Of a DNA stretch of 64,000 nucleotides, positions 13,946 through 57,847 are shown one piece after another (position 1 is the stretch's first letter; each line of letters begins with the position of its first letter). Location: positions 43,588 to 107,587 of the forward strand of contig JAKBPI010000003.1 in assembly GCA_021829645.1 (NCBI GenBank), written 5' to 3'. Under the pieces are notes generated by a model, which was given only the letters and a program-made list of their open reading frames with translations, ran no database searches and was not told the DNA's origin. The position numbers and the translations under genes were made by a program. Source of the stretch: Actinomycetes bacterium (GTDB taxonomy: Bacteria; Actinomycetota; Acidimicrobiia; Acidimicrobiales; Bog-793).

Positions 13946-15676
13946 TCATAAACTAGATTCATATGCAGGATTCATTGTAATTTGATTTCTTACCCGCCAG
14001 CATTTATCTTGAGATAGGATGCTAAGAACTTCTTTTGAGATAGAGGGGTTTTCTGCTACATAATACCGTACATGTTCATCTTCGTCTCTAGCTAAGTTTT
14101 TCAGGATTTGATTCGAAACAGATGGATTACCGGCAACAGAAAATCTGACATAACGGTTTTGATCGATTAAAAGTCTTTCCAGGGTTTTTGTCGGTGCATC
14201 TGGATTCCCGGCTACACTTTTTCGCACACGATAGTCCTCATCTCTGGACAATACTTCCAGTGCCTCCGGTGGTGTGTTGTGGTTTCTGGCAACACCTCTT
14301 CGTACACGATAATTCTCATCTCTGAATAATACTTCCAGTGCGTACGGTGGTGTGTTGTGGTTTTCGGCAACACAATATCGTACAGTATAGTCCTCATCTC
14401 TAGCTAATCTTTCCAGGGTTTCTGTTGGTGTGTTGGGGTTTTCGGCAACACAATATCGTACAGTATAGTCCTCATCTCTAGCTAATCTTTCTAGGGTTTC
14501 TGTCGATGTGTTGTAGTTTTTGGCTACATCACTTCGTACAGAAGACTCCTTATCTCTAGCTAATCTTTCTAGGGTTTCTGGTGGTGTATTGTGGTTTCTG
14601 GCTACACCAAATCGCACATCATAGTCCTTATCTCTAGCTAATCTTTCTAGGGTTTCTGTCGGTGTGTTGTAGTTTTCGGCTACATCACTTCGTACAGTAT
14701 AGTCCTTATCTCTAGCTAATCTTTCTAGGATTTCTGTCGGTGTGTTGTGGTTTTTGGCAACACAATATCGTACGGCATGGTTCTTATCCTTAGCTAATCT
14801 TTCTAGTGTTTCTGTCGGTGTGTTTGGATTCCCGGCTACACCTTCTCGTACATCAGAGTCCTCATCTCTAGCTAATCTTTCTAGGACTTTTGGTGGTGTG
14901 TTGTGGTTATAACTAATTTGATTGCGTATGCTTGGACTTTTATCGTGAGACAACTGTTCTAAGATAGTAGCTGATACATCCGGACGTTGTGCTATGTAGA
15001 GTAGCATTTGCACTTCATCACTGGGTATTGAAAAGCGGTTATACCCATCTGACACATAAAACCTATCGACATCTCGTATTTGCCCTTCGTCACTGAGTTT
15101 TGGCAAGGCATCCATTGGGGTGTTTAGATGCATGGCAACACATTTTTTTACTTCTATGCTTTTATCATTTGAAAGAATTCTAAGTAAATCAGTTGTTGTT
15201 CGTGGATTCTTTGCCACACCGGCACGTACTGCGACATTTTCATCTGTGACCAATTGTTCTAAGATCTCTATTGGAGTATTGGGATATTCAGCTATAAAGA
15301 TTTTGTCTCCGATATCTTTGCAATTGTAAAATTCTTCTATATTTGTTGTCAATGTAGGTTTTATGCTACGTGGGTAATTTCCTTCTTTTTTTGCTTCAGC
15401 GATTCTTTTGGCTAGTTCACTTAGTCGATAATTTGCCAAAGTTTCTGAGAATCCAGTTCTGGGATCAGGATAAATATCACAATCACTCGGACTACCCATA
15501 CCTATCAGGTGAACTTTTTGCTCGGCTATCTTTAGTTGCTCGGGTGTTTTAGCAGATTGAATTTCTTCCAGTCTTTCTTCAAGCCACTCTATAGTGTTAC
15601 CGTTTTCCAGTGGATCACATCTGATCAGATCGATGAACAAAATCAACATTTGTTCCACAGAAGCAGATTCTGTCAT
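13946..15676 (-). CDS. Leucine-rich repeat variant (LRV)-type protein, about 16 repeats of 26 aa; candidate immunity protein
   Basis: Repeated NxNTPxExLERLARDxDYxVRxxVAx; 78-bp DNA periodicity visible. Confidence 0.85.
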   Translation of the reverse strand: MTESASVEQMLILFIDLIRCDPLENGNTIEWLEERLEEIQSAKTPEQLKIAEQKVHLIGMGSPSDCDIYPDPRTGFSETLANYRLSELAKRIAEAKKEGNYPRSIKPTLTTNIEEFYNCKDIGDKIFIAEYPNTPIEILEQLVTDENVAVRAGVAKNPRTTTDLLRILSNDKSIEVKKCVAMHLNTPMDALPKLSDEGQIRDVDRFYVSDGYNRFSIPSDEVQMLLYIAQRPDVSATILEQLSHDKSPSIRNQISYNHNTPPKVLERLARDEDSDVREGVAGNPNTPTETLERLAKDKNHAVRYCVAKNHNTPTEILERLARDKDYTVRSDVAENYNTPTETLERLARDKDYDVRFGVARNHNTPPETLERLARDKESSVRSDVAKNYNTSTETLERLARDEDYTVRYCVAENPNTPTETLERLARDEDYTVRYCVAENHNTPPYALEVLFRDENYRVRRGVARNHNTPPEALEVLSRDEDYRVRKSVAGNPDAPTKTLERLLIDQNRYVRFSVAGNPSVSNQILKNLARDEDEHVRYYVAENPSISKEVLSILSQDKCWRVRNQITMNPAYESSL

Positions 15677-15804: not shown

Positions 15805-16480
15805 TCAATTTTCTGAATCTATATCAACGTTAATCCAGTAAATGTCCCACCACGGCTGGGTAACTCTATAAGGGACGCTGTTAGTATCCTGTGATGAACC
15901 TACTTGTGCAAGCACCTCTGCTGGGGTTGTTCCTACTGGAAGCACAAATTGATATACGGTGCCACCCTCAACTTTCCCTACCCAAAAAGTAGTGTCTTTA
16001 GTGAGCTTATAAACGGTAACGTATTTGCCGGTATTACCATATTTATTGATGTTCAGCATCCTCTCGGCATCGGCCATATTTGCTGGTTTTACAGGTGAAA
16101 AGAAGTTACCTATAAGTGAAGGATTTTCATCTGATGAAAGTCTATATATACGAGTACCTTCCCGTAATGTAACTTCTTTAGCTTTAGCTTCGCCACCTTG
16201 AAATGTAGCAAAACCTTCGGCAGGAGGTTTTGCTCCTGCACTACCAACCGCCACAATGCCATCTGAAAGAAATACTTGAGGTATAGAGACGGAAGTTATG
16301 CAGTTGATAAGCGACGATCCTGAGTCTCCACTCGGATCTATCTCATTGACAGGGTCTCCTCCTGTGTAGGTATATGGTTGGTTTGTTTCATCCACCATAG
16401 GATCAACTGATAAGAACTGAGCCGTACTTGGGTCGTAGTAGCGGTGGATTGAACCGTCCGACGCATGTCGGCTTGCTCGT
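15805..16480 (-). CDS. Orphan RHS-family C-terminal fragment with a toxin-like tip (5' boundary approximate; the upstream part of the 365-aa ORF is not considered real)
   Basis: RYYDPSTAQFLSVDPMVDETNQPYTYTGGDPVNEIDPSG (RHS core end) then a unique C-terminal domain. Confidence 0.7.
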
Positions 16481-16625
16481 TCGTAGTCGATACCGGATGA
16501 CGTGCAGAAACGTTCGCAGCCAGCGGCGTCCGCGGTTACGGATATCGAAAATAGCGCGGACGCGTGTTTGCGGCAGTACCCGATGTGGGAGCGAGGAGGG
16601 GCCGCTGTTGTCGGGGCGACGCCGG

Positions 16626-17040
16626 TCACAGGAGTAGCTCGAAGGCGGCGATGTGCGAAGGTCGGACGACGGTGAAATGGCGGTGGTCGAGCGTGGCGAT
16701 CTGTGTCACACCGAGTCGCTCGGCGACGGCGACGACGGACGCGTCGACGACTCCGAGCCCGAGATCTGCGTAGCTGTCGACCAGCTTGCCGACCCGGCTG
16801 CAGTCCGCGTCGTCCATGTCGAGGCGCTCGATCTCTCCCAGCATCAGAGACTGGAGGAAGCGTGCCTCGGCGGCCGATCCCAGCCTGGACTCGATCAGCC
16901 ACGACGATTCGACGATGACCGGGACGGTGACCGCGAGCGGAGTGGAGGCCAAGGAATCAAGCAAGTCCGCGCAATCCTGATGCCGGGGGGTCGTCGAGGT
17001 CGGCCGCTCCGAAGATGACGCCGGTGTCGACGATGATCAC
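16626..17040 (-). pseudogene. vapC: VapC-type PIN-domain toxin, frameshifted at a G6 tract (16985-16990)
   Basis: VIIVDTGVIFGAADLDDP | frameshift | LLDSLA...VESSWLIES...VDASVVAVAERLG..IATLDHRHF; PIN acidic residues present once the frame is restored. Confidence 0.75.
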
Positions 17041-17051
17041 CGTGGCGATCT

Positions 17052-17300
17052 TCAGACGTCTGCGGCGGTCTTGTCGGCGAAGTGATCGCGGATGATCTCT
17101 TCATGACGTTCCGCGATCGAGTCCCGGCTCCGGGATCGGCCGATCCCTATGAAGCTGAGGCGATGGCCACCAGTACGCGAAAGTGCGTGGGTACGCAGCA
17201 CCTCGGCCGCCACGTCCTCGGGGGACGTCCCCCGCTCGGCGGCCTCGGAGGCCAGGCGTTCGGCGATCTCGTCGGGGACCACCACCCGCAGCTCGGTCAT
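17052..17300 (-). CDS. vapB: VapB-type antitoxin (ribbon-helix-helix-like)
   Basis: MTELRVVVPDEIAERLASEAAERGTSPEDVAAEVL; stop lies 11 nt before the vapC start. Confidence 0.7.
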   Translation of the reverse strand: MTELRVVVPDEIAERLASEAAERGTSPEDVAAEVLRTHALSRTGGHRLSFIGIGRSRSRDSIAERHEEIIRDHFADKTAADV

Positions 17301-17370
17301 GACACCAATGGTACCTGGGGGCCGGAAGAACGGCCGTCCATCAGCCCTGGTGGAACCGTGATGGAGTGGT

Positions 17371-17490
17371 TCAGCTGGTCTGGTGGGTGCCGGCCACCGG
17401 CTGGAGCAGCCGCACCTCGGCGCCGGCGGTGTCGTTGCCGGCGGGATGGGCGGCGGCGTGCACGGCCCGGAGCTTGGCGATCGAGGCTTG
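17371..17490 (-). pseudogene. Tyrosine recombinase C-terminal tail fragment
   Basis: [28 protein letters not shown] resembles the tail of the recombinase at 18572-18690. Confidence 0.65.
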
Positions 17491-17589
17491 AATGGGGCAG
17501 TCAGTTATTGGAACTGTAGGAGTAGCTGTGGGTGGGGGGTCCGGGGGGAGGGGTGGATAACTGTTGACTCTGTGGACGGTCAACCTGGC

Positions 17590-17843
17590 GCCGGCTGTAG
17601 TCGGCGGCGTAGGTCGTCCAATCGCCGCTGGCGATCTGCTGCCACTTGACGGCGACCGCGATGTGCACGCCGAGCATCTTGGCGATCACCGCCGCAGACG
17701 TGGGCCGGACGCCAGTTCCACGGGTAGTCGTTGGTGGTGGTCGCGAACCGGCGGACGAGTTGCTCACGCCCTTCGATCGTTTCCTCACGCAGCCCTCGGG
17801 CCAGCTGCTGGGCCCGCCAGCCGCGCAGCATCGCCTCGAGCAT
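17590..17843 (-). pseudogene. Second tyrosine recombinase remnant: N-terminus joined to C-terminus with the catalytic core missing
   Basis: MLEAMLRGWRAQQLARGLREETIEGREQLVRRF...DYPWNWRP, then in another frame AKMLGVHIAVAVKWQQIASGDWTTYAADYSRR. Confidence 0.65.
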
Positions 17844-18029
17844 CGCGTCTTCGGGGCGTAGCTGGGCTACCCCGGAGACGAGCTCAAGCTATACAGAACC
17901 TGCGAGATCCCCGCGCGCCAACCCTCCACCTCTCTCCCGTTTGGAGGTGGCATCCTGCATCAGATGGGCTTATGCCGCAAACGTGCAGGTGGGCCTTTGT
18001 GGACAGATGTCCGGCGTGTGGCATTGGCT

Positions 18030-18160
18030 GCGCTTTTTGACCAGCGATCCTCGCGTCAGGCGCAACTTCTGAGAGTTCCCGTAGAGGGCCGTCGTCTCGA
18101 GCGTGGCGTGGCCCAGCATCTCCGAGACGTGCTCTGATCGCCGAACCACTTGCGATCTTG
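18030..18160 (-). pseudogene. Tyrosine recombinase catalytic C-terminal fragment
   Basis: [25 protein letters not shown] matches [20 protein letters not shown] of the larger copy. Confidence 0.65.
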
Positions 18161-18571
18161 CGATGGCTCGCCACGACGATATGTCCGCTGATCGCCTTTC
18201 AGCCACGGTCGGCTCCTTACTCACGAATTGAGTCCTTCAGCCCAGCGCCGAGCTCGGCGGTGTCAGTGGCCTCCCCCTATCCGGATCCACGCCATGTCGT
18301 TGACACCATGATTGGAATTGGCCCTCGCGCAGAGACGGTGAATTGAGGAACCAGACCCGAGTTCCGAACCGCTCACTCATGAGCTTGTGAGCCCGCCCCA
18401 TCATCACCATGCCGCAGACGAGCACGATGACATCGGCAACAACCAGTACAGAGGCAAGGGCGACTAAAACGACGATGCTATGGCCGACAACAAGTAGCAC
18501 GGCCCAGCGAGCTGCGCACGCACCGCGTAGGCCTGGTTCCGCCAACCCTGTCGAAGAACGGACGGAGAGGT

Positions 18572-19539
18572 TCAGCTGGTCGGCTGGCCACCCGGAACCG
18601 CTCGAAGCAGTCGGATGTCAGCTTCGGTGATGTCGTTGCCGGCGGGGTGAGTGGCGGCGTGCACGGCCCGGAGCTTGGCGATCGAGACGCGGGTGTAGAG
18701 GGCAGTGGTCTCCAGCTTGGCGTGGCCGAGCATCTCCGATACGTAGCGGATGTCGGCGCCGCCCTCCAGCATCAGCGTGGCGCAGGTGTGGCGGAACAGA
18801 TGGCAGCTACCGCGCTTCCCCGGAGCCCCCGCCGCGATATAGGCCTTGGTCGTGCGCGACAGCCAGTCGGCACACCCGAGGCAGAGAGGAACAGCACATC
18901 GGTTTCCTTGGTCACCAACTTCGGCCGTACCAGGTCCCCATAGCGGGACACCCACAGCAGCGCCCGGGCGCCGATGGGGACGTGACGGTCCCGCGCACCC
19001 TTGCCTTGGCGGACGAACGCGGTGCCGCGGGCGTGGTCGATGTCCCAGATCCGCAGGCCGATCAGCTCGGCCCGGCGTATCGCCGTCGAGTACAGCACCT
19101 CGAGGATGGCCCGATCCCGTACGCCAAGGTGCGTGGTCACGTCGGGACCTTGGAGAACTGACTCTGCTTCCTCGGCGCTGAGGGTGGCTTCGGGGAGACG
19201 GTGCTCGGCCTTCGGAAGGACGAGACCGATGGCGGGGTCGAGAGGGATGCGCCCGTGGGCCGCCAGCCAGGCGAAGAAGGCCTTGACCGGGATAATGCGC
19301 TGTGCCTGAGTACGGAACGAGAGTGGTGCGCCATTGGCCTTCTTGTGGTGGAAGAGGTGACGTTGGTAGGACTCGAGAGCGGCGAAGCTGACAGCGGAGG
19401 GCTCGATGATGTCGAGGGCGGCCAGGAACTCGACGAGATCGGACAGGTGGTGGGCACGGCCGGCGACGGTGGTCTTGGCGTAGCCGTGACTGGCTAGCCA
19501 GGACAGGTACTCCTCGGCGGCGAGCGCCAGCGGTTTCAT
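18572..19539 (-). pseudogene. XerC/D-like tyrosine recombinase, nearly complete but split by one frameshift near 18860-18890
   Basis: N-terminal 255-aa ORF ([16 protein letters not shown]...[17 protein letters not shown]) continues in another frame as [41 protein letters not shown]. Confidence 0.8.
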
Positions 19540-21965
19540 TCCGGGCTTCCCGCTCTGGTACCCCGATATGGGTCTACCTTAGCACCTGTGACTACGCCTA
19601 CGATTGCACGTTCGTCCTCACCGTACGCGTCGGTATCGACCGCGGGGTCGGCCGTTCTCCCAGCGTGGACGCCGCTTTCACCCCGCGAGTTGTTGTGGCG
19701 CACTGGTCGCGGGGTATCGCGGGGTTCGGTTTCCGGCGGGTCGGCCAACAGGTAACGGTGTTGGCGCCCTTGGCCACCCGGGAGGGCGATCAGGTACTCG
19801 AGGGCTACCAGGCGAGTCAGCCCAATGCGGACCTGATGCTCGGACCAGCCGAGCGTCTCTCGTAGCTCCCTCCGGGTGAAGCCGACCGACTCCGGGGCAA
19901 CGCCGCCGGTCTCGGCAACGTCGGCGACATGGGCTTGGGCGGTTGCCAGGAGACGACGGGTCTGCGGGGCCAGGTTGTCACCGCCTCGGGTCAATACCTG
20001 CTCGGCCAGGCGCACCCCCAGGGCGACATCGTCGGGAGATGCTTCGACGTAGCGGACAGTGCGGTCCCCGACCTCGATCGTGTCTTGGCAGCGCTGATGC
20101 TGGTGGAGCAGGGCCGAGGCGCAGATGAGGCTGAGCAGCTTCTGGTGATCGCGCCGATGCCGGGTGGCATGGTCGGGGAAGACGATCCCTCCGGCGTCGG
20201 GGATCACGACCGGCAAGGGTTCGATGAGGCGTTGGGCGTTGCGATGCCGGGCTACAATGCGCTCGCGTTGCAGGCGGGCGACCAGGCCGTCCAGGGTGAC
20301 CGCTTGGCGCTGGGCCGCCTGGATGGCCCGGGTCTGCGCCCGGTCCTCGTCGACGCCGAGGACAACGAGACGGTTCTGGAGCTCGGGGTCGATGTCGGTC
20401 GCGGTCGTCGTGAGCACAAGGGCCACCGGACCGGCCACCTGGTAGCTGCGCGTCCGGAGCTTGCCGGTGGTGGTGTCTTTGCCGGTCGAGGCGATCGACA
20501 GATGACCTTCGGTCACCAGCAACTTGAGAGCGTAGGACGCCCGGGATGCTCCTTGCTCTTCGGCCACGGCCAGCACCTTGTGGGCCAGGTCGGCGGCGCC
20601 GACGTAGTAGAGGGCTTGGCCGGTCACCGCCGAGTAGGAGGCCAGATCCTCTTCGGGCACCAGCTGGCATACCGCGTCGGCCAGCGTCGACTTGCCCGCC
20701 GCCGACGACGATTGGACCACGACCCCGAAGGGACGCTCGGCCTTCCTCGAGATGGTGGCCAGGTAACCGACCAGCAAATTGGTCTCCTCGCCCACCACCC
20801 CGAGAGCCCCCAGGTCTTCGACCACCTGATCGGCCAGGTCCGAGGCGGTGAGCAGCTCCATGGCGTCGACCCGCTCGTCCTCGGTCATGGCGAACACCGG
20901 TGCTGCGGTGTCGCGCGCCGCGACGGCCGCTTCGGTGGCGAAGAGCACCTCGGCCAGCTCACGAACCAACCCGGCGCGCTCGGTGTGAAGTTCGGCGACC
21001 GCCGCCTCGACGAAGGCGGACCGAGCCTTCGCCTGGCAGAGATCCAGGGTGTCGAGATGAAACCCGCCGTGCTCGACGTCGGTGACGGCCAGGGCCACGC
21101 GCAAGGTGTCGGGCGTCTTGTTGCGATCCGCGCCGCGCACCCGCCATTGGTGCGCACCGATGCTCACGTGCAACTCGGCCGCGTCACCCGATACCACGGC
21201 AGATCCGTTGACCGACGGGCCTGGAGTCACGCAGTCGGGCACGGCGACGGTCGCCGTGGCGACATCGGCGACCTTGTCACTGCGTACGTCATTGCCGACT
21301 GGACGGCGCGGGGTGGACGTGGCCAGCAGCGCCGCGAGCGCGCTCGCCCGGTCGTCCGCCCGACCGAGCACGACAGCCAGGGATGCCCCGGGCGAGACCA
21401 GCTCACAGTCGATGCCTTCAGCGGCGATCCGTTCGGCCAAGGGTGCCATGGCGTCGCCGACGATGGTGCAACGCTGCACCCCGCCCCGGGCCAGCAATCG
21501 GAGATCCGCGTTGTGAAACCCGCCGGGACGTCCTGGCGCGACCACGCCTCGGTGCCCGGCGCTGCGCACGCCCAGCGCGTCGTCGATCGAGGCCACCACG
21601 ATCACCTCGGCATTGGTCGTCGCTGCGGCCTCGTTGAACATCCCGCCTGGAAGACCCGCCGCCCACTGACATTCAGACGAGGCGGAAGCCAAGCGGATGC
21701 CGCACAGCTGAAACACCCGACCATCGGCCGAGAGCACCGGGACCACCATGCAACCCCGGAAATGCTCATGCCCCGAGGACCGGTAGAGGCCGAGACGCAT
21801 GAGCTGGTCACGCAGCTTCGCCCCATCCTTGCGGTTCGCTTCGGGCAGGCGATAGCCCAAAGTGCGATTGGCGAAGCCGATCCGCAGTTCGTCAGCCAAC
21901 GCGTCGTCCACACCGCGCTCGGCCAGCCAATTCTTCGCTTGCTCTGAGGCTCTGCGCTCCCCCTG
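19536..21965 (-). CDS. Toprim-like plus P-loop ATPase replication protein (ORF start called at 21911; open frame continues to the amber codon at 21966-21968)
   Basis: [17 protein letters not shown] Walker A; Toprim-like [17 protein letters not shown]...CTIVGD; C-terminal HTH-like region. Confidence 0.7.
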
Positions 21966-22304
21966 CTAGTGAGCGAGCACGGCGTCGATGACTGCCTCGT
22001 CGTCGGCCTCCGGGTCACACAAGAGCGGCAGCGGACGCACCGTCGACTTCGCAACCAACCCGGGCGGTCCGTCAGGCCGCCACCCCGATCGCACCAGCTC
22101 GGCGGCATGTCTCATCGACAACCCGCCGAACACCGCCACCAGCTCGACCGATCCGCCCGAGCCACAGCCACACGCCCACGACTCGTCATCCACCGCCAGC
22201 GGATCGCCACAACGCGGACAGTTGGCAACAAGGCCGCCGTCGCCGGGACGAAGCGGGATCCCGAAGGCCTCGACCAGCTCGACCAGCCTCGCCTCGTCGC
22301 CCAC
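21966..22304 (-). CDS. CHC2-like primase zinc-binding domain, ending in TAG that is in frame with the downstream primase
   Basis: CPRCGDPLAVDDESWACGCGSGGSVELVAVFGGLSMRHAAELV. Confidence 0.75.
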   Translation of the reverse strand: MGDEARLVELVEAFGIPLRPGDGGLVANCPRCGDPLAVDDESWACGCGSGGSVELVAVFGGLSMRHAAELVRSGWRPDGPPGLVAKSTVRPLPLLCDPEADDEAVIDAVLAH

Positions 22305-22394
22305 GCCACCTCCCTCCGGTCATCGTTGTTACGGTTGGTTCTACCTCCACTATCAGCATCCATCCAGTCCAAACCTCCGGTAACGTTCCCGACC

Positions 22395-22766
22395 ATGGCT
22401 TTCGCCGAGACCCTCGCCGACCTGCGCCGATCCCGGGGCCTCACCCAGGTCGCGTTAGCGCAGCGTGCCGGGGTCAACGTGTCCCAGCTGCGCAAGTACG
22501 AAGGCGGCGGATCCGAACCGTCTCTCTCCGCACTGAGGCGATTGGCCGTCGCCCTCTCATGCACCACCGACGCCCTCGTCTTCGGCAACGACCCCCGCCT
22601 GCCCGACGACCAAGCGCTCCGACTCGCCTTCGAAGCCACCACCTTCCTCGACAACGCCGAGCGGGCGACGGTCCGCGAGGTCCTCGACGCGTTCATCGCC
22701 CGCCACAACGCCCGACACGCCGAGGACCGGCCGCGCCGGCCCAGACACCGCAGACGGGCGACCTGA
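22395..22766 (+). CDS. XRE-family HTH transcriptional regulator
   Basis: LADLRRSRGLTQVALAQRAGVNVSQLRKYEGGGSEPSLSALRRLAVAL; start chosen inside the longer ORF. Confidence 0.88.
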   Translation: MAFAETLADLRRSRGLTQVALAQRAGVNVSQLRKYEGGGSEPSLSALRRLAVALSCTTDALVFGNDPRLPDDQALRLAFEATTFLDNAERATVREVLDAFIARHNARHAEDRPRRPRHRRRAT

Positions 22767-23452
22767 GCGGCACCGTCGCCAACGTCGCGGGCTGTCGTGC
22801 CAAGCGCGGCCAACCGGCAACGCACGAGCACGGCACGCAACCCGACGGTGGCACGGCTCTGGCACTGTGAATGCGACCGAGCAGTATCGGATCGGGGTTG
22901 CAACCGGACGGACACCAGCACCCGACTGATCGGGATGATGCATACGACAACGTCATCGTCATGAAGGCTCGTCCCCGCCCGCCGGTGAACTTCCCGTGGG
23001 TCGTCGCCGTCATCACCGGTCGGTCGCTGTGACTCGATGCGACCACGTCGCAATCGGCCACCCGTCCCACGATCGATGCCGAAACCCGAAACCACCCCTA
23101 ATGAGTCGGCCGACGCGACGGAGCCCCCAACAGCGCCCCAACCAGCAACTTCGCCCCAAACAGAGGGCTCCAATCCTGGACGGAGCCCTCCACGGACCCC
23201 GCCGTGGAGCCCACCACGGAGCCCCTTACGGACCCCGCCACCGGGAGGGAGGACGGGGCCGGCAGCGACGAAACGGACTTCCATACCTATAGAACAAGGC
23301 CGAACGAGCCGAAATTCAACAAACCTTCCGACCGGCGACCCGCAAAACCGAACCTGGGACAGAGCGCGACCACACCACCGAGGGTGGACAACGACCGGAA
23401 CTTCTCTGGCGGGACCTTCCACTCCCGATCTGGGAGCGCGGATCTTCCTACT

Positions 23453-23863
23453 TCACGTAGCGGTGTTCGGAGGATTCGGAGAGCTATCCGACTTCATTTC
23501 AGCCCAGCGGAAGCCACGGTCGATCCAGGTAATGTGCTCGACGACGTCGAACCCAGCCTCTCGGAGCGCCCGCCGAACCTTTCGCCTTGCAAGGAGCCAT
23601 ACCGTAGCGACCAGGGTTCCACCGTCACCGCGGATTGGGATAGCCAAGTCGAACCACGGCGGTACCAGCCGAGCGACGTAGACATCCACCCTAGAGCCAT
23701 TGTGTTTCACCTGGTGAGCCTTACTGACGCCGGCCATTAGCCGCCCAGGACTACATACCAAGGAGCCGGGAGCGATCGTCAGCTGTCCACCCCCACGCCA
23801 CGATCTCGGCCCGATCAAACCAACCCGGAAGCTCGCTGGCCGGGGATCTACAGGGGCATTCAT
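23453..23863 (-). CDS. Hypothetical protein
   Basis: 136-aa ORF with protein-like composition in the GC-rich island. Confidence 0.4.
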   Translation of the reverse strand: MNAPVDPRPASFRVGLIGPRSWRGGGQLTIAPGSLVCSPGRLMAGVSKAHQVKHNGSRVDVYVARLVPPWFDLAIPIRGDGGTLVATVWLLARRKVRRALREAGFDVVEHITWIDRGFRWAEMKSDSSPNPPNTAT

Positions 23864-24084
23864 CCAATCCGCCCCCCTGTCGGAGCAACGATGATCATGG
23901 ACATCGCCCTAAGAGTATTCCAGCGGTCGATGCCAACACGCCCTAGCCAAGCTCGCCTGAGACATCTTCACCATCCCGGCAAGTCAAACGGTGCGCGGAA
24001 GCTGTAGCTCTGATTGACCGACACCTGTCGGCCAGCACCGAAGCCGATGCCAACATTGGTCCCGAAATCGTTCGCGCTCGTCCC

Positions 24085-50641: not shown

Positions 50642-51946
50642 ATGACACGCAAGTTCCGTATTCAAGATTTAGTAAACCTAGTGGATCAATCAGTCACCAT
50701 ATACGGGTGGGTGGATACGATCCGTGACCAGAAAAGCGTCCAGTTTGTGATCATCCGAGACGAAACCGGCAAGGTGCAAGTTGTCCACGACAGACAGGAA
50801 AACCCTGATTTGGCCGAAGTCATCGGACAGTTGAGCACCGATTCGGTAGTGGAAGTGACGGGAAAAGTTATTGCAGACGAACGTGTAAAACTGGGAGGGT
50901 TGGAGTTGCGAGTTGAAAGCTTCAAAATTCTTTCCAAGGCAGACGATCTGCCCATCAACGAGCAGTCCAATCTTGACAAGCGTCTGGATTGGAGGTTTAT
51001 CGATCTGCGTTCTCGTCGCAATCAGCTCATTTTTCAAGCACAGACCATTTTGGAAAATGAATTTAGAAGACATTGCCAAGACGAAGGTCTTATCGAGATC
51101 AATTCTCCCAAGCTGATGGCTAGCCCTAGTGAGTCTAGGTCGGAGTTATTTCAGGTAAAGTATTTTGACAGAACGGCATACTTGGCTCAGTCTCCTCAGT
51201 TTTACAAGCAGATGGGAATTGCTTCCGGCTTTCCGGGGGTTTTTGAAACCGGTCCAGTCTTTAGGGCAAACCCGTCTTTTACTTCTCGGCACGATACCGA
51301 ATTTACAAGTCTTGACGTTGAAATAGCGTGGGTTAGCTCTCATGAAGACGTCATGTCATTCGAGGAGCGTCTGTTGCGTCGTGCTATTGAAGCCATCAAG
51401 TCTTCCTTGGGTCCGGAACTTGAGTCTGAGTTCGGTACTCCTATTACGGTACCGCAACTTCCTTTTCCTCGTATCCCTCATGCCGAAGCCATTAGATTGG
51501 TAAAAGAAGCCGGGTATGAAATCCCCAGATCAGATGGGGATCTGGATCCGGAAGCCGAAAGGCGTCTTTCGGAAAATCTAATGAAGACAACCGGTCATGA
51601 ATTCGTATTTGTGACAGACTATCCGTCTTCCGTGCGTCCTTTTTATCACATGAGATATGAAGACGCTCCTACGGTAACGAAAAGTTTTGACCTGATTTGG
51701 AAGGGTCTTGAAATAACAACCGGTGCCCAGAGAGAGCACCGCTATGAAATTCTCAAGTCACAAGTTCTAGACAAAGGACTTGACCCACAGAGTCTGGATT
51801 TCTATCTGGACTTCTTCCGTTTTGGCTGTCCTCCGCATGGTGGATTCGGTCTTGGGCTTACTAGGCTGCTGATGATTCTGCTTGGTGTAGCCAACGTGAG
51901 AGAGGTTACCTATCTCTACCGTGGTCCAAACCGCTTAGTACCATAG
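50642..51946 (+). CDS. aspS: Aspartyl-tRNA synthetase, short archaeal-like type
   Basis: FRANPSFTSRHDTEFTSLDVEIAWV, GGFGLGLTRLLMILLGVANVREVTYLYRGPNRLVP; 434 aa. Confidence 0.9.
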   Translation: MTRKFRIQDLVNLVDQSVTIYGWVDTIRDQKSVQFVIIRDETGKVQVVHDRQENPDLAEVIGQLSTDSVVEVTGKVIADERVKLGGLELRVESFKILSKADDLPINEQSNLDKRLDWRFIDLRSRRNQLIFQAQTILENEFRRHCQDEGLIEINSPKLMASPSESRSELFQVKYFDRTAYLAQSPQFYKQMGIASGFPGVFETGPVFRANPSFTSRHDTEFTSLDVEIAWVSSHEDVMSFEERLLRRAIEAIKSSLGPELESEFGTPITVPQLPFPRIPHAEAIRLVKEAGYEIPRSDGDLDPEAERRLSENLMKTTGHEFVFVTDYPSSVRPFYHMRYEDAPTVTKSFDLIWKGLEITTGAQREHRYEILKSQVLDKGLDPQSLDFYLDFFRFGCPPHGGFGLGLTRLLMILLGVANVREVTYLYRGPNRLVP

Positions 51947-52269
51947 ATAACCCGGCCTGTTTTTAGCATGTCGTTATTATAAATATGCCGTAGAGAAATA
52001 TTTTTGCTTTGCCGGGAGGTTACGCCTGGCTTTTTGTACGGAACAACCCGCTTATCTCAAAGAGAGGTTACTCAGGCAACTGACAGATTAACTAAAGCAT
52101 TACACAATGTGTCAAAAGATTTAATCAATCGTATAATCATGTTTGCAGTGTTAGTAGTTATTTATGCAGTGGAATAGAGTAAACCCTTGCCGATTTATCT
52201 GAGAAATTGATAAGAAAGTATTCAGTTAGGCGCGTACTCAGAAAGAACACAGCTTGCTAGTGTAAAACT

Positions 52270-55200
52270 GTGAAGTTTGATAAGAAAAATAGAAAATTTG
52301 GATCTTTCTATAACAAGTCTGCAAGTTCAACAGCAAGAGAAACCATTGCCATCTACTCGGGTGGAGACGCTTTTCCAACCGGGACTTTAACAGATATTTT
52401 CGATTTTACATGCCGTCAACATGCTTTTTGTTCGGCAATTGACGATGGCAACTCGGTTGTAACTTATGAGCAATTGCAAAAATATGCTATAGCCAATGCA
52501 CGGCGTATACTGGATTTAGGGATTCAGCCGGGAAGCAGAATCGGAGTGTGTTTACCCTCCGGTGAGGCAAAGCTTTATCTGGCAATTGTGGCTATTTTGT
52601 ATGCCGGTTGTGCCTACGTTCCGGTCGATTTTGATGAATCTGCAGAACGGGCAGCTATGATATTTGCCGAAGCCGATGTGAGTGCGGTCATCGGTATTGA
52701 GGGAATACGCATATCCAGCGGTAGTTCAGAGACATTTATACTCGATGAAGAAAGCTTACCAAGTGGCTTTAAAACTGCCGGTAATGATGTGTTGCCGACT
52801 GTAGATCCTCATGATGACGCCTGGATTATTTTTACCTCAGGCTCGACCGGCAAGCCAAAAGCCGTCGCCGTTACGCATAAATCTGCAGCGGCTTTGGTTG
52901 ACGCGGAAGCAAAAACATTTTTACAATCCAGGCCTTTATCGCCTGGAGATAGAGTTATGGCAGGACTTTCTGTATCTTTTGATGCTTCTGTTGAAGAAAT
53001 GTGGCTGGCTTGGCGAAACGGGGCCTGCTTGGTACCGTTTAAAAGAGGTATCGTACGGTCCGTTATCGATCTGGGAAAAGAGATCAAAAAGCGTAACATT
53101 ACTGCTATATCGACGGTGCCGAGTATAGCTGCTTTTTTTGAAGAAGAAGACTTATCGACTGTGCGGCTGTTGATCCTAGGCGGTGAAAAGTGTTCGGCAA
53201 ACCTTGCTGAGAGACTGCTGCAATTCTCCTTTCCTTCTAAGGTTACTAAAGCTGTCGGCAGTGCCGGTGCCGGGAGGGAGATTTGGAATACATACGGTCC
53301 CACGGAAACCACAGTCATTGCTACGGCACAACGACTTATCCACGGGGAGCCGATAAGAATCGGCTTACCCATACCCGGTTATCGTCTGGCTGTAGTGGAT
53401 GACAATTTAGCTCCGGTACCCATGGGTGCCGAAGGCCAGTTGGTCATTTCCGGAGTTGGAACGGCACGTTATTTAGATTCAGAAAAAGACAGTTCGTCTT
53501 TTGTAGAGCTTTCCTGTTTTCCTGATGCGAGAACTTATTTGACGGGCGATATCGTAAAAGCCGAGCCTGAAGGACTTATTTGCTTGGGTCGTATGGACGA
53601 ACAAGTGAAAATAGCCGGAAAGCGTATAGAGTTGGGGGAAGTGGAAGAATGCTGCCGTCAGCTGCCGGGGGTGCGTGATGCCGCGGCTGTCCTCCATGGC
53701 TCAGATTCGGAATCTCCGGTATTGGCGGCGTACTTAGTAACGGATTTTGAAACAGATAACTCATCCCTTACCGCCGCCTTGACAAAAATGCTTCCGACAG
53801 GCTGTGTCCCATATCTGGTTAGGGTAGCAGAATTGCCGCGTAAGATATCAGGCAAAGTTGATAAGTCTGTCCTGCCTTGGCCCCCGGATAACACTCAGGC
53901 AAAAGGTAATACTTATCAATTCGGCACCGATTATTCTGATTGCGAGAAGAATTTAGACGGCATAGATATAGAAGTCACAGCGAAGAAAAAGCTATTTCCT
54001 GCACGTGATAGTCTATCAATTACTAAAAAGAATACGTTTTTAGGTAAACTCTTATCTTCTTTTAGATTGCAAAAGCTAAATAACTTGAGTACAGATGCCA
54101 CAAGATCTAAAAGTGTTATTTCCAATACTGAAAGTGTCGTTTCCATTACCGATCACAAAGATGAAGATATCAAAGAATTCGTCATGAAGTCATGGGCTTC
54201 GGTTATCGGCAGAAGGCCATTGGATAACGAAGATTTTTTTGTTTCAGGGGGAAACTCACTGTCTGCCGCTCGCTTAGTTGCTTTGCTGAGAAAGCGTTTT
54301 CCAACTTTGCCAATAGCTGAATTGTACCGTAATAGGAGACCGCAGGAATTGGTATCTTTACTTGAGAAAATAGACCAAGTTGGTAATAGAACCGAGATCA
54401 CATATACTCCAAGAAAACTTTTTGCACTGGGTCAGATTTCTGTTATTTTGTTCTCTTACACTGTGGTAGCGATGGAATGGCTACTGACTCTTTTGATTTT
54501 GTCGTCTCTTCTCATCAAAAGCAGCTGGGCTCCGCATATCAATCTATTGCTTTGTGTGCTCGTGTGGCTGGCTCTGATAAGTCCGCCGGCCCGCACGGTA
54601 TTGGCTGTTATTTTTGCCCGCTTGTTTACGGGCTCAATTGTGCCCGGCAAATATAAACGTGGCGGACTTGTCCACTTTAAACTGTGGACAGCTGAGTTTT
54701 TGGTGGCGAGATTCGCTCCGGTAAGTATGCTCGGTACGCCTCTTATCAATATCTATGCCAAAGCTATCGGTTGTCGTGTCGGTGACGGTGTTGTGCTCCA
54801 ATCCATGCCACCCGTGACGGGTTTGGCACAATTTGCTTTTGGTGTCACTGTAGAGACTGAAGTGGACCTATCCGGATGGCGTCTTGGGGTCTCAGAAGTT
54901 GAAGTAGGTTCTATTTCTATAGGGGAATTCTCCAGGCTGGCCACACGTTCCGTCTTGGCTCCGGGGGTCACGATAGCAGAAAATGCCGAAGTAATGCCCG
55001 GTACTTATGTACAAGAAAATATTTGCAAGCCAGGTATATGGGCCGGCTCTCCGGCTCGACAACTAGCTGGGGAAAAAAGCAATTTGCCCATAGCAATGTC
55101 TGCTTTCTCACGACTTTGGAAGTTTGCTTTTTCTCTTACCCCCGGCCTGCTTACCTCAGTTGGCTTAGTAGCGGCAGTAATACCGCTAATTTTTCTTTCG

Positions 55201-56547
55201 CTGTTTTCGGGTATTGCCAATACGGCAGACGGTTTTGCGGCTTTGCGTTTAGAACTGCTCTGGGCCCCCATACTGGCACTGTCCTGGATTGCAGCTTACA
55301 TATTTACTCTGGTCACTCTCCTGCGGTCTCTGTCGTTTCGCTTAAAAGGGGGAACCTACCCGCTTTATAGTTTTATTGGCTGGCGTATTTGGCTGGTGGA
55401 GTCATTGGTAGGAGCAGCCCCTCGAGCGCTGTTTCCGTTGTATGCTTCGCTTGTGACCCCATTTTTATTTCGCATGTTTGGGGTTAAGGTTGGGAAAAAT
55501 GCAGAAATTTCTACTCTTTGGTGTAATCCGGCATTTTGTAATTTAGACAACAAAACATTTCTAGCTGATGATACAAAAGTCGGTTGCAGTGAGTATGGTC
55601 GAGGTTGGATTGCGATTTCTAATACCCACCTCAAAGAGGGTACTTTTATGGGGAATTCGGCTTTAATTCAACATGGTAGCGATATAGGTAAAGACGTGTT
55701 GATCGGTGTCATGACACTTGCGCCGAAAGCAGCCCAGAGCGGCTCTTCTTGGCTTGGCAACCAGGCTCTTGAACTTCCTCTTTCGCGTATGCAAAGCGAT
55801 GAAACCAGGACCTATCAACCTTCTAAAAAGCTCTTCGCATATCGACTTTCAGTAGAAATATGGCGATTAATTGTCCCTATCTTTTCCCTTGTGATTCTAG
55901 AAGGAGTTGGGGCAGCACTACTCGATTGTTACAGGTATTTTCCTGTTTACTTGACAGTTATATTATCTGGTGCAATCCTTTTGGCGGGAGCCGGTGTCGC
56001 AGTCCTGTTGTCAATTGTCGCAAAGTGGCTTATCGTTGGACGACTAAAACCCGGCGAACACTTGCTTTGGAGCAGCTTTGTTTGGCGAAATGAGTTGGTC
56101 GACGTATTTATTGAAGACTTAGCGGCTCCGTGGTTATTGCAGGCTGCGCTTGGAACCCCACTGCTGAATTGTTATATGAGGTTATTGGGGGCAAAAATTG
56201 GCAAAGGGGTTACCTGTGATACATATTGGTTACCCGAAGCAGATTTGGTCGAAATAGGCGATGGTACGGTTGTCAATTGGGGCTCGGTGTTGCAAACTCA
56301 TCTCTTCCATGACAGAGTTTTACGGCTTGATAGGGTTGAAATAGGAAATTATTGTGAGCTGGGAAGACATTGTATTACGCTACCCGGGTCGCGAATTGAT
56401 CATTACTGCTCAATAGGAGATTCCTCTCTTTTGGGACGAGGGGAAGAGTTGCCAAAGGGGACGACATGGCAAGGCAATTTACTACAGCCTAATTATATAG
56501 AAATAGAAAAAAATCAAATAGATGAATTACAACTAAAAACAAATTAA
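52270..56547 (+). CDS. NRPS-like poly-amino-acid synthetase (adenylation + carrier + TM/hexapeptide tandem domains), Pls-type
   Basis: IIFTSGSTGKPKAV, NTYGPTETT, YLTGDIVK, KISGKVDK; carrier FFVSGGNSLSAARLV; three hexapeptide-like soluble blocks separated by TM pairs. Confidence 0.85.
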   Translation: MKFDKKNRKFGSFYNKSASSTARETIAIYSGGDAFPTGTLTDIFDFTCRQHAFCSAIDDGNSVVTYEQLQKYAIANARRILDLGIQPGSRIGVCLPSGEAKLYLAIVAILYAGCAYVPVDFDESAERAAMIFAEADVSAVIGIEGIRISSGSSETFILDEESLPSGFKTAGNDVLPTVDPHDDAWIIFTSGSTGKPKAVAVTHKSAAALVDAEAKTFLQSRPLSPGDRVMAGLSVSFDASVEEMWLAWRNGACLVPFKRGIVRSVIDLGKEIKKRNITAISTVPSIAAFFEEEDLSTVRLLILGGEKCSANLAERLLQFSFPSKVTKAVGSAGAGREIWNTYGPTETTVIATAQRLIHGEPIRIGLPIPGYRLAVVDDNLAPVPMGAEGQLVISGVGTARYLDSEKDSSSFVELSCFPDARTYLTGDIVKAEPEGLICLGRMDEQVKIAGKRIELGEVEECCRQLPGVRDAAAVLHGSDSESPVLAAYLVTDFETDNSSLTAALTKMLPTGCVPYLVRVAELPRKISGKVDKSVLPWPPDNTQAKGNTYQFGTDYSDCEKNLDGIDIEVTAKKKLFPARDSLSITKKNTFLGKLLSSFRLQKLNNLSTDATRSKSVISNTESVVSITDHKDEDIKEFVMKSWASVIGRRPLDNEDFFVSGGNSLSAARLVALLRKRFPTLPIAELYRNRRPQELVSLLEKIDQVGNRTEITYTPRKLFALGQISVILFSYTVVAMEWLLTLLILSSLLIKSSWAPHINLLLCVLVWLALISPPARTVLAVIFARLFTGSIVPGKYKRGGLVHFKLWTAEFLVARFAPVSMLGTPLINIYAKAIGCRVGDGVVLQSMPPVTGLAQFAFGVTVETEVDLSGWRLGVSEVEVGSISIGEFSRLATRSVLAPGVTIAENAEVMPGTYVQENICKPGIWAGSPARQLAGEKSNLPIAMSAFSRLWKFAFSLTPGLLTSVGLVAAVIPLIFLSLFSGIANTADGFAALRLELLWAPILALSWIAAYIFTLVTLLRSLSFRLKGGTYPLYSFIGWRIWLVESLVGAAPRALFPLYASLVTPFLFRMFGVKVGKNAEISTLWCNPAFCNLDNKTFLADDTKVGCSEYGRGWIAISNTHLKEGTFMGNSALIQHGSDIGKDVLIGVMTLAPKAAQSGSSWLGNQALELPLSRMQSDETRTYQPSKKLFAYRLSVEIWRLIVPIFSLVILEGVGAALLDCYRYFPVYLTVILSGAILLAGAGVAVLLSIVAKWLIVGRLKPGEHLLWSSFVWRNELVDVFIEDLAAPWLLQAALGTPLLNCYMRLLGAKIGKGVTCDTYWLPEADLVEIGDGTVVNWGSVLQTHLFHDRVLRLDRVEIGNYCELGRHCITLPGSRIDHYCSIGDSSLLGRGEELPKGTTWQGNLLQPNYIEIEKNQIDELQLKTN

Positions 56548-56668
56548 TAGTTTCATCAGATTCTTTAGAAAAGTTGTTTTATAACAACCAAGTGTAGTTA
56601 AAGGTAAAAAATTCATTAATAATTTTTTCCTATTCAAATAAGAATTTAATCATTGGTGATAGCAAGTT

Positions 56669-57301
56669 ATGACAAGAAGCGTCTCCCTTTTTACTAAAGA
56701 CATATCTTTACCCGCCATTACCCTTTTGGAGGGTAATGGCATCGACGAACTTAAAACTTTAGCTCGTGCTATTTCTAAACTTTCCGACTTTAACCAAAGT
56801 AGGTCATATAGAGATAATTTTGCACTGCTGGCTGAGTGGAAAAACAGGGTCGGCGTTGATATCGAGTGTCTCTGTATAAAAGACACTCGATATCAATACT
56901 ATAACGCTGGTACCGAATTAAATTATTTAGAAAAAAATATGCATGGCTATTTAGAAAATTCTGATAAAGATGTAGACCTACTGGCAGAAGCGATCCTAAC
57001 CCGTGAAGAAAAAGAAGCTATTAGCGGACTAGATTTGAATGATAAATATAGCAATATTATAAAGCTCTGGTCCGGTAAGGAAGCTTTAGCAAAAGCATTA
57101 GGCGATGCTTTAAGCTATGAGCCAAAAAGCCTTATAGCACCCGGCAATTGGCCCAATGCCTCTTCAGGATGCTGGCGGTATCTATTTTTTTATATTTATT
57201 GCTATACTGATAAATTTTTTATAATTTCTCATCAGGATAAGCTTATAACAAAAGAGCTACTATCTGCCTATGTTGTATCTATAGTGTATGAAGTAAGGTA
57301 A
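56669..57301 (+). CDS. 4'-phosphopantetheinyl transferase-like protein
   Basis: VGVDIECL and IKLWSGKEALAKALGDAL resemble PPTase GVDIE and WxxKEAxxKA motifs. Confidence 0.75.
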   Translation: MTRSVSLFTKDISLPAITLLEGNGIDELKTLARAISKLSDFNQSRSYRDNFALLAEWKNRVGVDIECLCIKDTRYQYYNAGTELNYLEKNMHGYLENSDKDVDLLAEAILTREEKEAISGLDLNDKYSNIIKLWSGKEALAKALGDALSYEPKSLIAPGNWPNASSGCWRYLFFYIYCYTDKFFIISHQDKLITKELLSAYVVSIVYEVR

Positions 57302-57404
57302 TATTATTTCTAAGTTTTATACCTCAAGTACATTTTTCTTGCATTTACACTCCGGGTTAAATATAAAAATGCATTATTGGTAAATAGCTGTATTTTGTAG
57401 TGAC

Positions 57405-57533
57405 CCCGACTTTGGCAAGCAATTTCGCCAATATCTCGCATAATACCTTGTAGGTATAGTTGTTTTTGTGTTTTGTGCTGATTAAGATACTTGTGACAAC
57501 TAATGTTTCTTTACAGATCCTACAACTGTTCTA
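57405..57533. repeat. Dispersed repeat of about 130 bp, copy A (imperfect match to 63874-64000)
   Basis: Shared CCCGACTTTGGCAA, GATTAAGATACTTGTGA and TTCTTTACAGATCCTACAA blocks in the same order. Confidence 0.85.
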
Positions 57534-57794
57534 ATGTCAGATTCACTCAAGTATTTTTTATTCATTACAATGCCTAGTTGTCTTTGTACGTTTCAAGTAA
57601 TGTTTGCGTCTACTGCCAATTTGGATACGGTTATCTCTTGCCAGGGAAATCAAAGCCGACAATTAGATGACTGAGGTATCCAGGAAAATCGGAACTCAGT
57701 TATACACTCCTCTTTCGAAGGGGTAACCGTGTCCAAATTGGTTATTAGCTTCAAGACTTATGAGGCGGGCGGGATGGGCGGGAATCAAGGACTT

Positions 57795-57823
57795 AGAAGC
57801 CCCGGTACAAGACCGGGGCTTCT
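57795..57823. terminator. 12-bp hairpin terminator followed by TTGTT
   Basis: AGAAGCCCCGGT acaag ACCGGGGCTTCT. Confidence 0.75.
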
Positions 57824-57847
57824 TTGTTACGAAAGCTCACAACTTGG

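Follow-up and report, generated by a model that had tools for sequence, protein, structure and literature searches.

What do two adjoining genes in an uncultured actinobacterium encode, and which product would they make together? The question is raised by a 64,000-nucleotide stretch of contig JAKBPI010000003.1 (assembly GCA_021829645.1, order Acidimicrobiales), here called the window, in which a 1425-residue open reading frame with a GTG start codon (52270..56547, + strand) is followed by a 210-residue frame with an ATG start codon (56669..57301, +). Both frames lie where an earlier note on this DNA had placed them, as a candidate synthetase of epsilon-poly-L-lysine or a related polymer and its phosphopantetheinyl transferase (PPTase). 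Epsilon-poly-L-lysine is a food preservative produced commercially with Streptomyces albulus. In combination, the analyses described below make it very probable that the larger gene encodes an epsilon-poly-L-lysine synthetase belonging to the Pls/PosA family and the smaller one its dedicated PPTase. The family and domain scores of both proteins are far above chance. The synthetase belongs to a family already known in kind; its lineage, its pairing with a PPTase and the variable site that the two genes occupy in the chromosome appear to be new.

Family and architecture of the synthetase

A C-terminal half unlike the Pls/PosA terminal domain had been named beforehand as one of two results that would overturn a Pls-type identity. 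In the profile search, residues 724-1403 matched TIGR02353, which describes this domain, with 519.7 bits (curated cut-off 423.1 bits), and the identity stood. The N-terminal half holds an AMP-binding domain (residues 56-400, 205.7 bits, Pfam) as part of an adenylation (A) domain delimited at residues 30-539 (52357..53886, +) from Pfam, the substrate code and alignment to the crystallised A domain of S. albulus Pls (7WEW). It is followed by a carrier (thiolation) domain at residues 638-698 (54181..54363, +; PF00550), with the phosphopantetheine serine S663 in the motif GGNSLS, and then by three pairs of transmembrane helices alternating with three soluble blocks. A Hexapep match (PF00132) was obtained at residues 882-914. 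No Condensation or Thioesterase family matched the 1425 residues in the Pfam scan, and neither the HHxxxDG nor the GxSxG motif is present in the sequence. Pfam, hydropathy and the structural model thus agree with the layout first described from the letters, including the alternation of hydrophobic and hexapeptide-like segments.

The C-terminal 721 residues were modelled with AlphaFold2 from an input alignment of 16 sequences, which gave a mean predicted local distance difference test (pLDDT) of 86.8 and a predicted template-modelling score (pTM) of 0.87. Together with hydropathy, the model places helix pair 1 at residues 716-749 and 759-787 (54415..54630), pair 2 at 948-979 and 989-1022 (55111..55335) and pair 3 at 1186-1223 and 1226-1256 (55825..56037), all on the + strand. 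Between and behind these lie three left-handed beta-helix blocks, also on the + strand: C1, covering approximately residues 788-947 (54631..55110; also supported by PF00132), C2 (55336..55824) and C3 (56038..56478). The arrangement agrees with the published beta-helix model of PosA (PMC10522769). The closest solved folds were LpxD bound to acyl carrier protein, serine acetyltransferase and maltose O-acetyltransferase; TM-scores over the whole chain were low, and no solved Pls terminal domain was among the top 50 structure matches listed.

Alignment revealed the conserved segments EIST (residues 1079-1082), AD (1099-1100) and FxGN (to 1129) in C2 and QTHLFHDR (1342-1349) in C3. E1079, T1082, D1100 and N1129 of C2 and H1344 and D1348 of C3 (E375, T378, D396, N425, H640 and D644 in the numbering of the aligned half) are invariant in the 16 aligned members, and all six are also kept in Streptomyces-type pls loci. 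In LpxD-like hexapeptide acyltransferases the acyl donor is a phosphopantetheine arm attached to a carrier, and by analogy with such enzymes C3 is the likeliest catalytic block of the membrane half, with H1344 and D1348 as the putative catalytic residues.

Predicted monomer and distribution of the family

The A domain is identical to that of 7WEW at 257 of 470 residues (~55%). Its substrate code (D238, A239, E242, S281, I302, G304, T341, V349, I350 and K529) reads DAESIGTVIK versus DAESIGTVVK in 7WEW; nine of the ten residues are the same and the remaining one is changed from V to I. Lack of amino-acid activation by the A domain had been named as the other overturning result; the domain carries an intact amino-acid code one substitution away from the lysine-specific code of Pls, and the identity stood here too. 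The pattern DAES(I/V)GTV(V/I)K was found in every one of the 21 sampled actinobacterial Pls of the Streptomyces/Rhodococcus type, as well as in each complete code from the clade of the window synthetase. The ornithine enzyme PosA has the code DMEHNGTVSK, and exchange of its second residue, M, for A raised lysine use approximately tenfold (PMC10522769). The window synthetase has A at this position, as does Pls, and lysine is therefore the best prediction for the monomer. By analogy with tested relatives, the linkage would be to the epsilon-amine, which makes epsilon-poly-L-lysine the most likely product.

The phylogenetic position of the synthetase was determined from a maximum-likelihood tree of 48 sequences (quick search, with support from the Shimodaira-Hasegawa-like approximate likelihood-ratio test, SH-aLRT, only). 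The window protein pairs with that of a congener, G002 (support 100), and the next relatives are from the public metagenome-assembled genomes (MAGs) palsa_511, LL2.bin31 and ZJ3.bin40 (support 98). The clade as a whole is the sister of the 21 Streptomyces/Rhodococcus-type Pls (SH-aLRT 98). Plasmid homologues annotated as Pls/PosA family in Streptomyces, Rhodococcus, Mycobacterium and Kitasatospora showed 40-44% identity over ~90-97% of the length. TIGR02353 scored above its cut-off in 24 of 399 genomes sampled from the phylum and 8 of 398 sampled from the order, and five of the 36 genomes of the window's GTDB family carry Pls. True Pls is still rarer in the order, since five of the eight carriers (L074-L080) belong to a different subfamily. 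This second TIGR02353 subfamily (L074-L080, L086, L105, L106), from the same order and from large-genome actinobacteria, is marked by other codes, e.g. DFECLSAVTK and DYEALSLVSK, and by changed motifs in C2 (QGSDN) and C3 (QHLDG, QHQDG). A further code, DSECYGGVTK, is common to homologues from Myxococcota, Planctomycetota, a Limnohabitans MAG and others (L028, L031-L034, L036, L037); arginine activation has been reported for a Bdellovibrionales enzyme with this code (PMC10522769).

A literature search pairing Acidimicrobi* with polylysine found nothing. The earlier note had remarked that the lineage was not known to its author for this product; the Pls/PosA family is widespread in bacteria (PMC10522769), so the lineage, although new, gives little cause for surprise.

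The adjoining phosphopantetheinyl transferase

The second gene (56669..57301) is a genuine, unusually compact PPTase, as its PPTase-like appearance had suggested. It matched PF01648 with 35 bits (cut-off 25), as did all seven collected PPTase homologues, and the metal-binding GVD-x-E and WxxKEAxxK motifs are present as GVDIE and WSGKEALAK. A sequence search against solved structures returned noise only; matches came instead from a fold search with the predicted model (pTM 0.77), which has an Sfp-type fold and for which human AASDHPPT and Sfp were the best hits. Members of this compact family have fewer residues N-terminal to GVDIE, and an RSY triplet before the VALVA-type strands is invariant among them, where the other Sfp-like enzyme of the genome (L050), like typical PPTases, has SHS.

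A PPTase of the compact family lies directly 3' of pls at six loci (the window, L023, L024, L026, L042 and L044), which span deep branches. The gap is 121 bp in the window, and at some of the six loci the reading frames overlap or nearly touch. Likewise, among the 36 genomes of the GTDB family a strong compact-PPTase match (>150 bits) was found in four of the five pls carriers versus none of the 31 others (unadjusted Fisher probability 8.5e-5, with the relatedness of the genomes ignored). No compact PPTase was detected within ~1.5 kb at 21 other actinobacterial pls loci using a search profile of family members and two general PPTases. It is tentatively proposed, at somewhat less than even odds, that the compact PPTases are a family not described before, which co-evolved with Pls in these actinobacteria and serves specifically to activate it; the two genes would then constitute a self-sufficient polylysine cassette, open to transfer, in bacteria of acidic habitats.

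In the mechanism envisaged for the pair, the PPTase would place phosphopantetheine on S663 of the carrier domain, and the A domain would adenylate L-lysine and load it onto this arm. The membrane half, whose three beta-helix blocks sit on six helices and together form a covalent pseudo-trimer, would then pass the lysyl group on to an epsilon-amine, either that of the next lysine or that of the chain under construction. Chains of 25-35 residues could in this manner be built one residue per step without a canonical condensation or thioesterase domain, and perhaps be secreted or surface-bound, as the earlier note had supposed.

Weighing the alternatives

Several observations weigh against an epsilon-poly-L-lysine synthetase with a dedicated PPTase. 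The polymer is a prediction from the genes by analogy with tested relatives, and no PldII-type peptidase adjoins pls in the window. The V-to-I change sits where the PosA pocket contacts the side-chain amine, so that another diamino acid, e.g. ornithine, might be accepted; the M that marks PosA is absent nearby. In G002, the PPTase homologue lies away from pls as assembled, beginning another contig behind the end of an unrelated frame, and in G007 (75% complete) pls is present and no compact PPTase was found. Furthermore, the window's genome (G000) has three PPTase-superfamily genes and the Pls-less G001 has two; with two such genes besides its own, the pls-linked PPTase may be dispensable. That the pair is self-sufficient, as originally suggested, finds support in its conserved linkage and co-occurrence. 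That the adjacency is due to chance, or that the PPTase serves another pathway, is unlikely: the 121-bp gap and the unlinked and missing homologues in G002 and G007 would fit such a view, whereas the recurrence across deep branches, with frames in part overlapping or nearly touching, and the confinement of the PPTase to Pls carriers within the GTDB family speak against it.

With regard to the product, use of a different diamino acid, most likely L-ornithine, to give delta-poly-L-ornithine or a similar cationic polymer is quite unlikely. PosA, which makes poly-ornithine, shares the overall code layout (PMC10522769), and position 350 is I in the window versus V in Streptomyces Pls; however, the position that separates ornithine from lysine carries the A of Pls instead of the M of PosA, residues S281 and I302 likewise agree with Pls and not with PosA, and the tree places the synthetase with the Pls clade. 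Epsilon-poly-L-beta-lysine, known from a related synthetase (PMC10522769), would need beta-lysine from lysine 2,3-aminomutase. No gene of this KamA family was found in the window's 94%-complete genome or in two congeners, and none adjoins pls, so beta-lysine is extremely unlikely. Decidedly unlikely, too, is a genuine synthetase that is silent or has a non-polymer role, such as a DltA/DltB-like attachment of one lysine, or a small number, to an acceptor on the cell surface. In its favour, pls has no neighbouring gene for export, resistance or degradation, and Corynebacterium variabile has a functional pls, yet no product was seen in culture (PMC8117764). Conversely, the family-invariant residues and the domains are all intact, and a homopolymer is the product of all enzymes of this layout that have been tested.

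Genomic setting and comparison with known systems

The two genes occupy a variable slot between aspS and tRNA-Ser(GGA) (51947..57844), recognised by comparison with G001, a genome of the same genus without pls. There the neighbours aspS and dnaX (91% and 83% identical as proteins) and tRNA-Ser(GGA) are all retained; DNA similarity ends at 51946, the end of aspS, and restarts at 57845, the tRNA-Ser 3' end, and the G001 slot contains 345 bp of unrelated sequence. In G002, pls is found elsewhere, behind amtB- and glnK-like genes (assigned by eye). Acquisition by G000, loss from G001 and relocation explain this difference equally well. The guanine-plus-cytosine (GC) content of pls is 45.8%, like its neighbours, and that of the PPTase gene is lower, 36.8%. 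No integrase frame is present in the slot, and no repeat of the tRNA-Ser end, the mark of an integrase site, was found by exact match. An 892-residue M1 peptidase encoded in the window's genome was considered as a Pls partner and rejected, as the Pls-less G001 also carries one. In Streptomyces an M1 metallopeptidase gene overlaps the end of pls, matching the literature, and the Rhodococcus and Mycobacterium pls plasmids have neither a peptidase nor a PPTase partner; the degrading-peptidase operon characterises the surroundings of the gene in Streptomyces and Corynebacterium and does not define Pls.

Elsewhere in the window, positions 16400-24000 have a GC content of 60-70%, against 46% for the genome, and look like a foreign island (gene functions by eye), including a XerC-like tyrosine recombinase (18772-19539, -), a 791-residue frame (19536-21911, -) and a helix-turn-helix frame (21969-22766, +). 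A 576-residue frame (13946-15676) with many near-identical repeats of NxNTPxETLERLARDxDxxVR, resembling HEAT or leucine-rich-variant repeats, adjoins an RHS-like C-terminal frame (15805-16902, -).

The enzyme kind, its chemistry and the beta-helix model are already known, and neither new chemistry nor a new kind of system is involved. The lineage and the helper gene as a Pls partner appear previously undescribed, and Pls in a deep branch of uncultured actinobacteria would widen the range of known producers. A compact two-gene version with its own PPTase would, if true, be convenient for heterologous expression. The polymer of S. albulus is seen only at a pH below approximately 5, and an acid response has been proposed (PMC7317143); a lineage with relatives probably from acidic habitats makes this idea testable.

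Among characterised systems, S. albulus Pls shares with the window synthetase the A-T-(TM-C)x3 layout, the 55% identical A domain and nine of ten code residues, and the invariant C2 and C3 residues are common to the Streptomyces-type enzymes; the gene after pls is an M1 peptidase gene there and a PPTase gene here. Pls of C. variabile, the product of which was confirmed by expression in Streptomyces coelicolor (PMC8117764), and other coryneform Pls are of the same family with a lysine-type pocket, but belong to a different lineage and have a peptidase rather than a PPTase partner. PosA of Acinetobacter baumannii, a delta-poly-L-ornithine synthetase, is alike in family, layout and modelled beta-helix pseudo-trimer (PMC10522769) and differs in its code. 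LpxD and other left-handed beta-helix acyltransferases are the best solved-structure matches of the membrane half, and the acyl donor of LpxD is likewise a phosphopantetheine arm; however, LpxD is a soluble homotrimer acylating a sugar nucleotide, and the overall similarity is low. Finally, Sfp and AASDHPPT share PF01648 and the fold with the window PPTase, which is set apart by its shorter N-terminal part and the invariant RSY in place of SHS.
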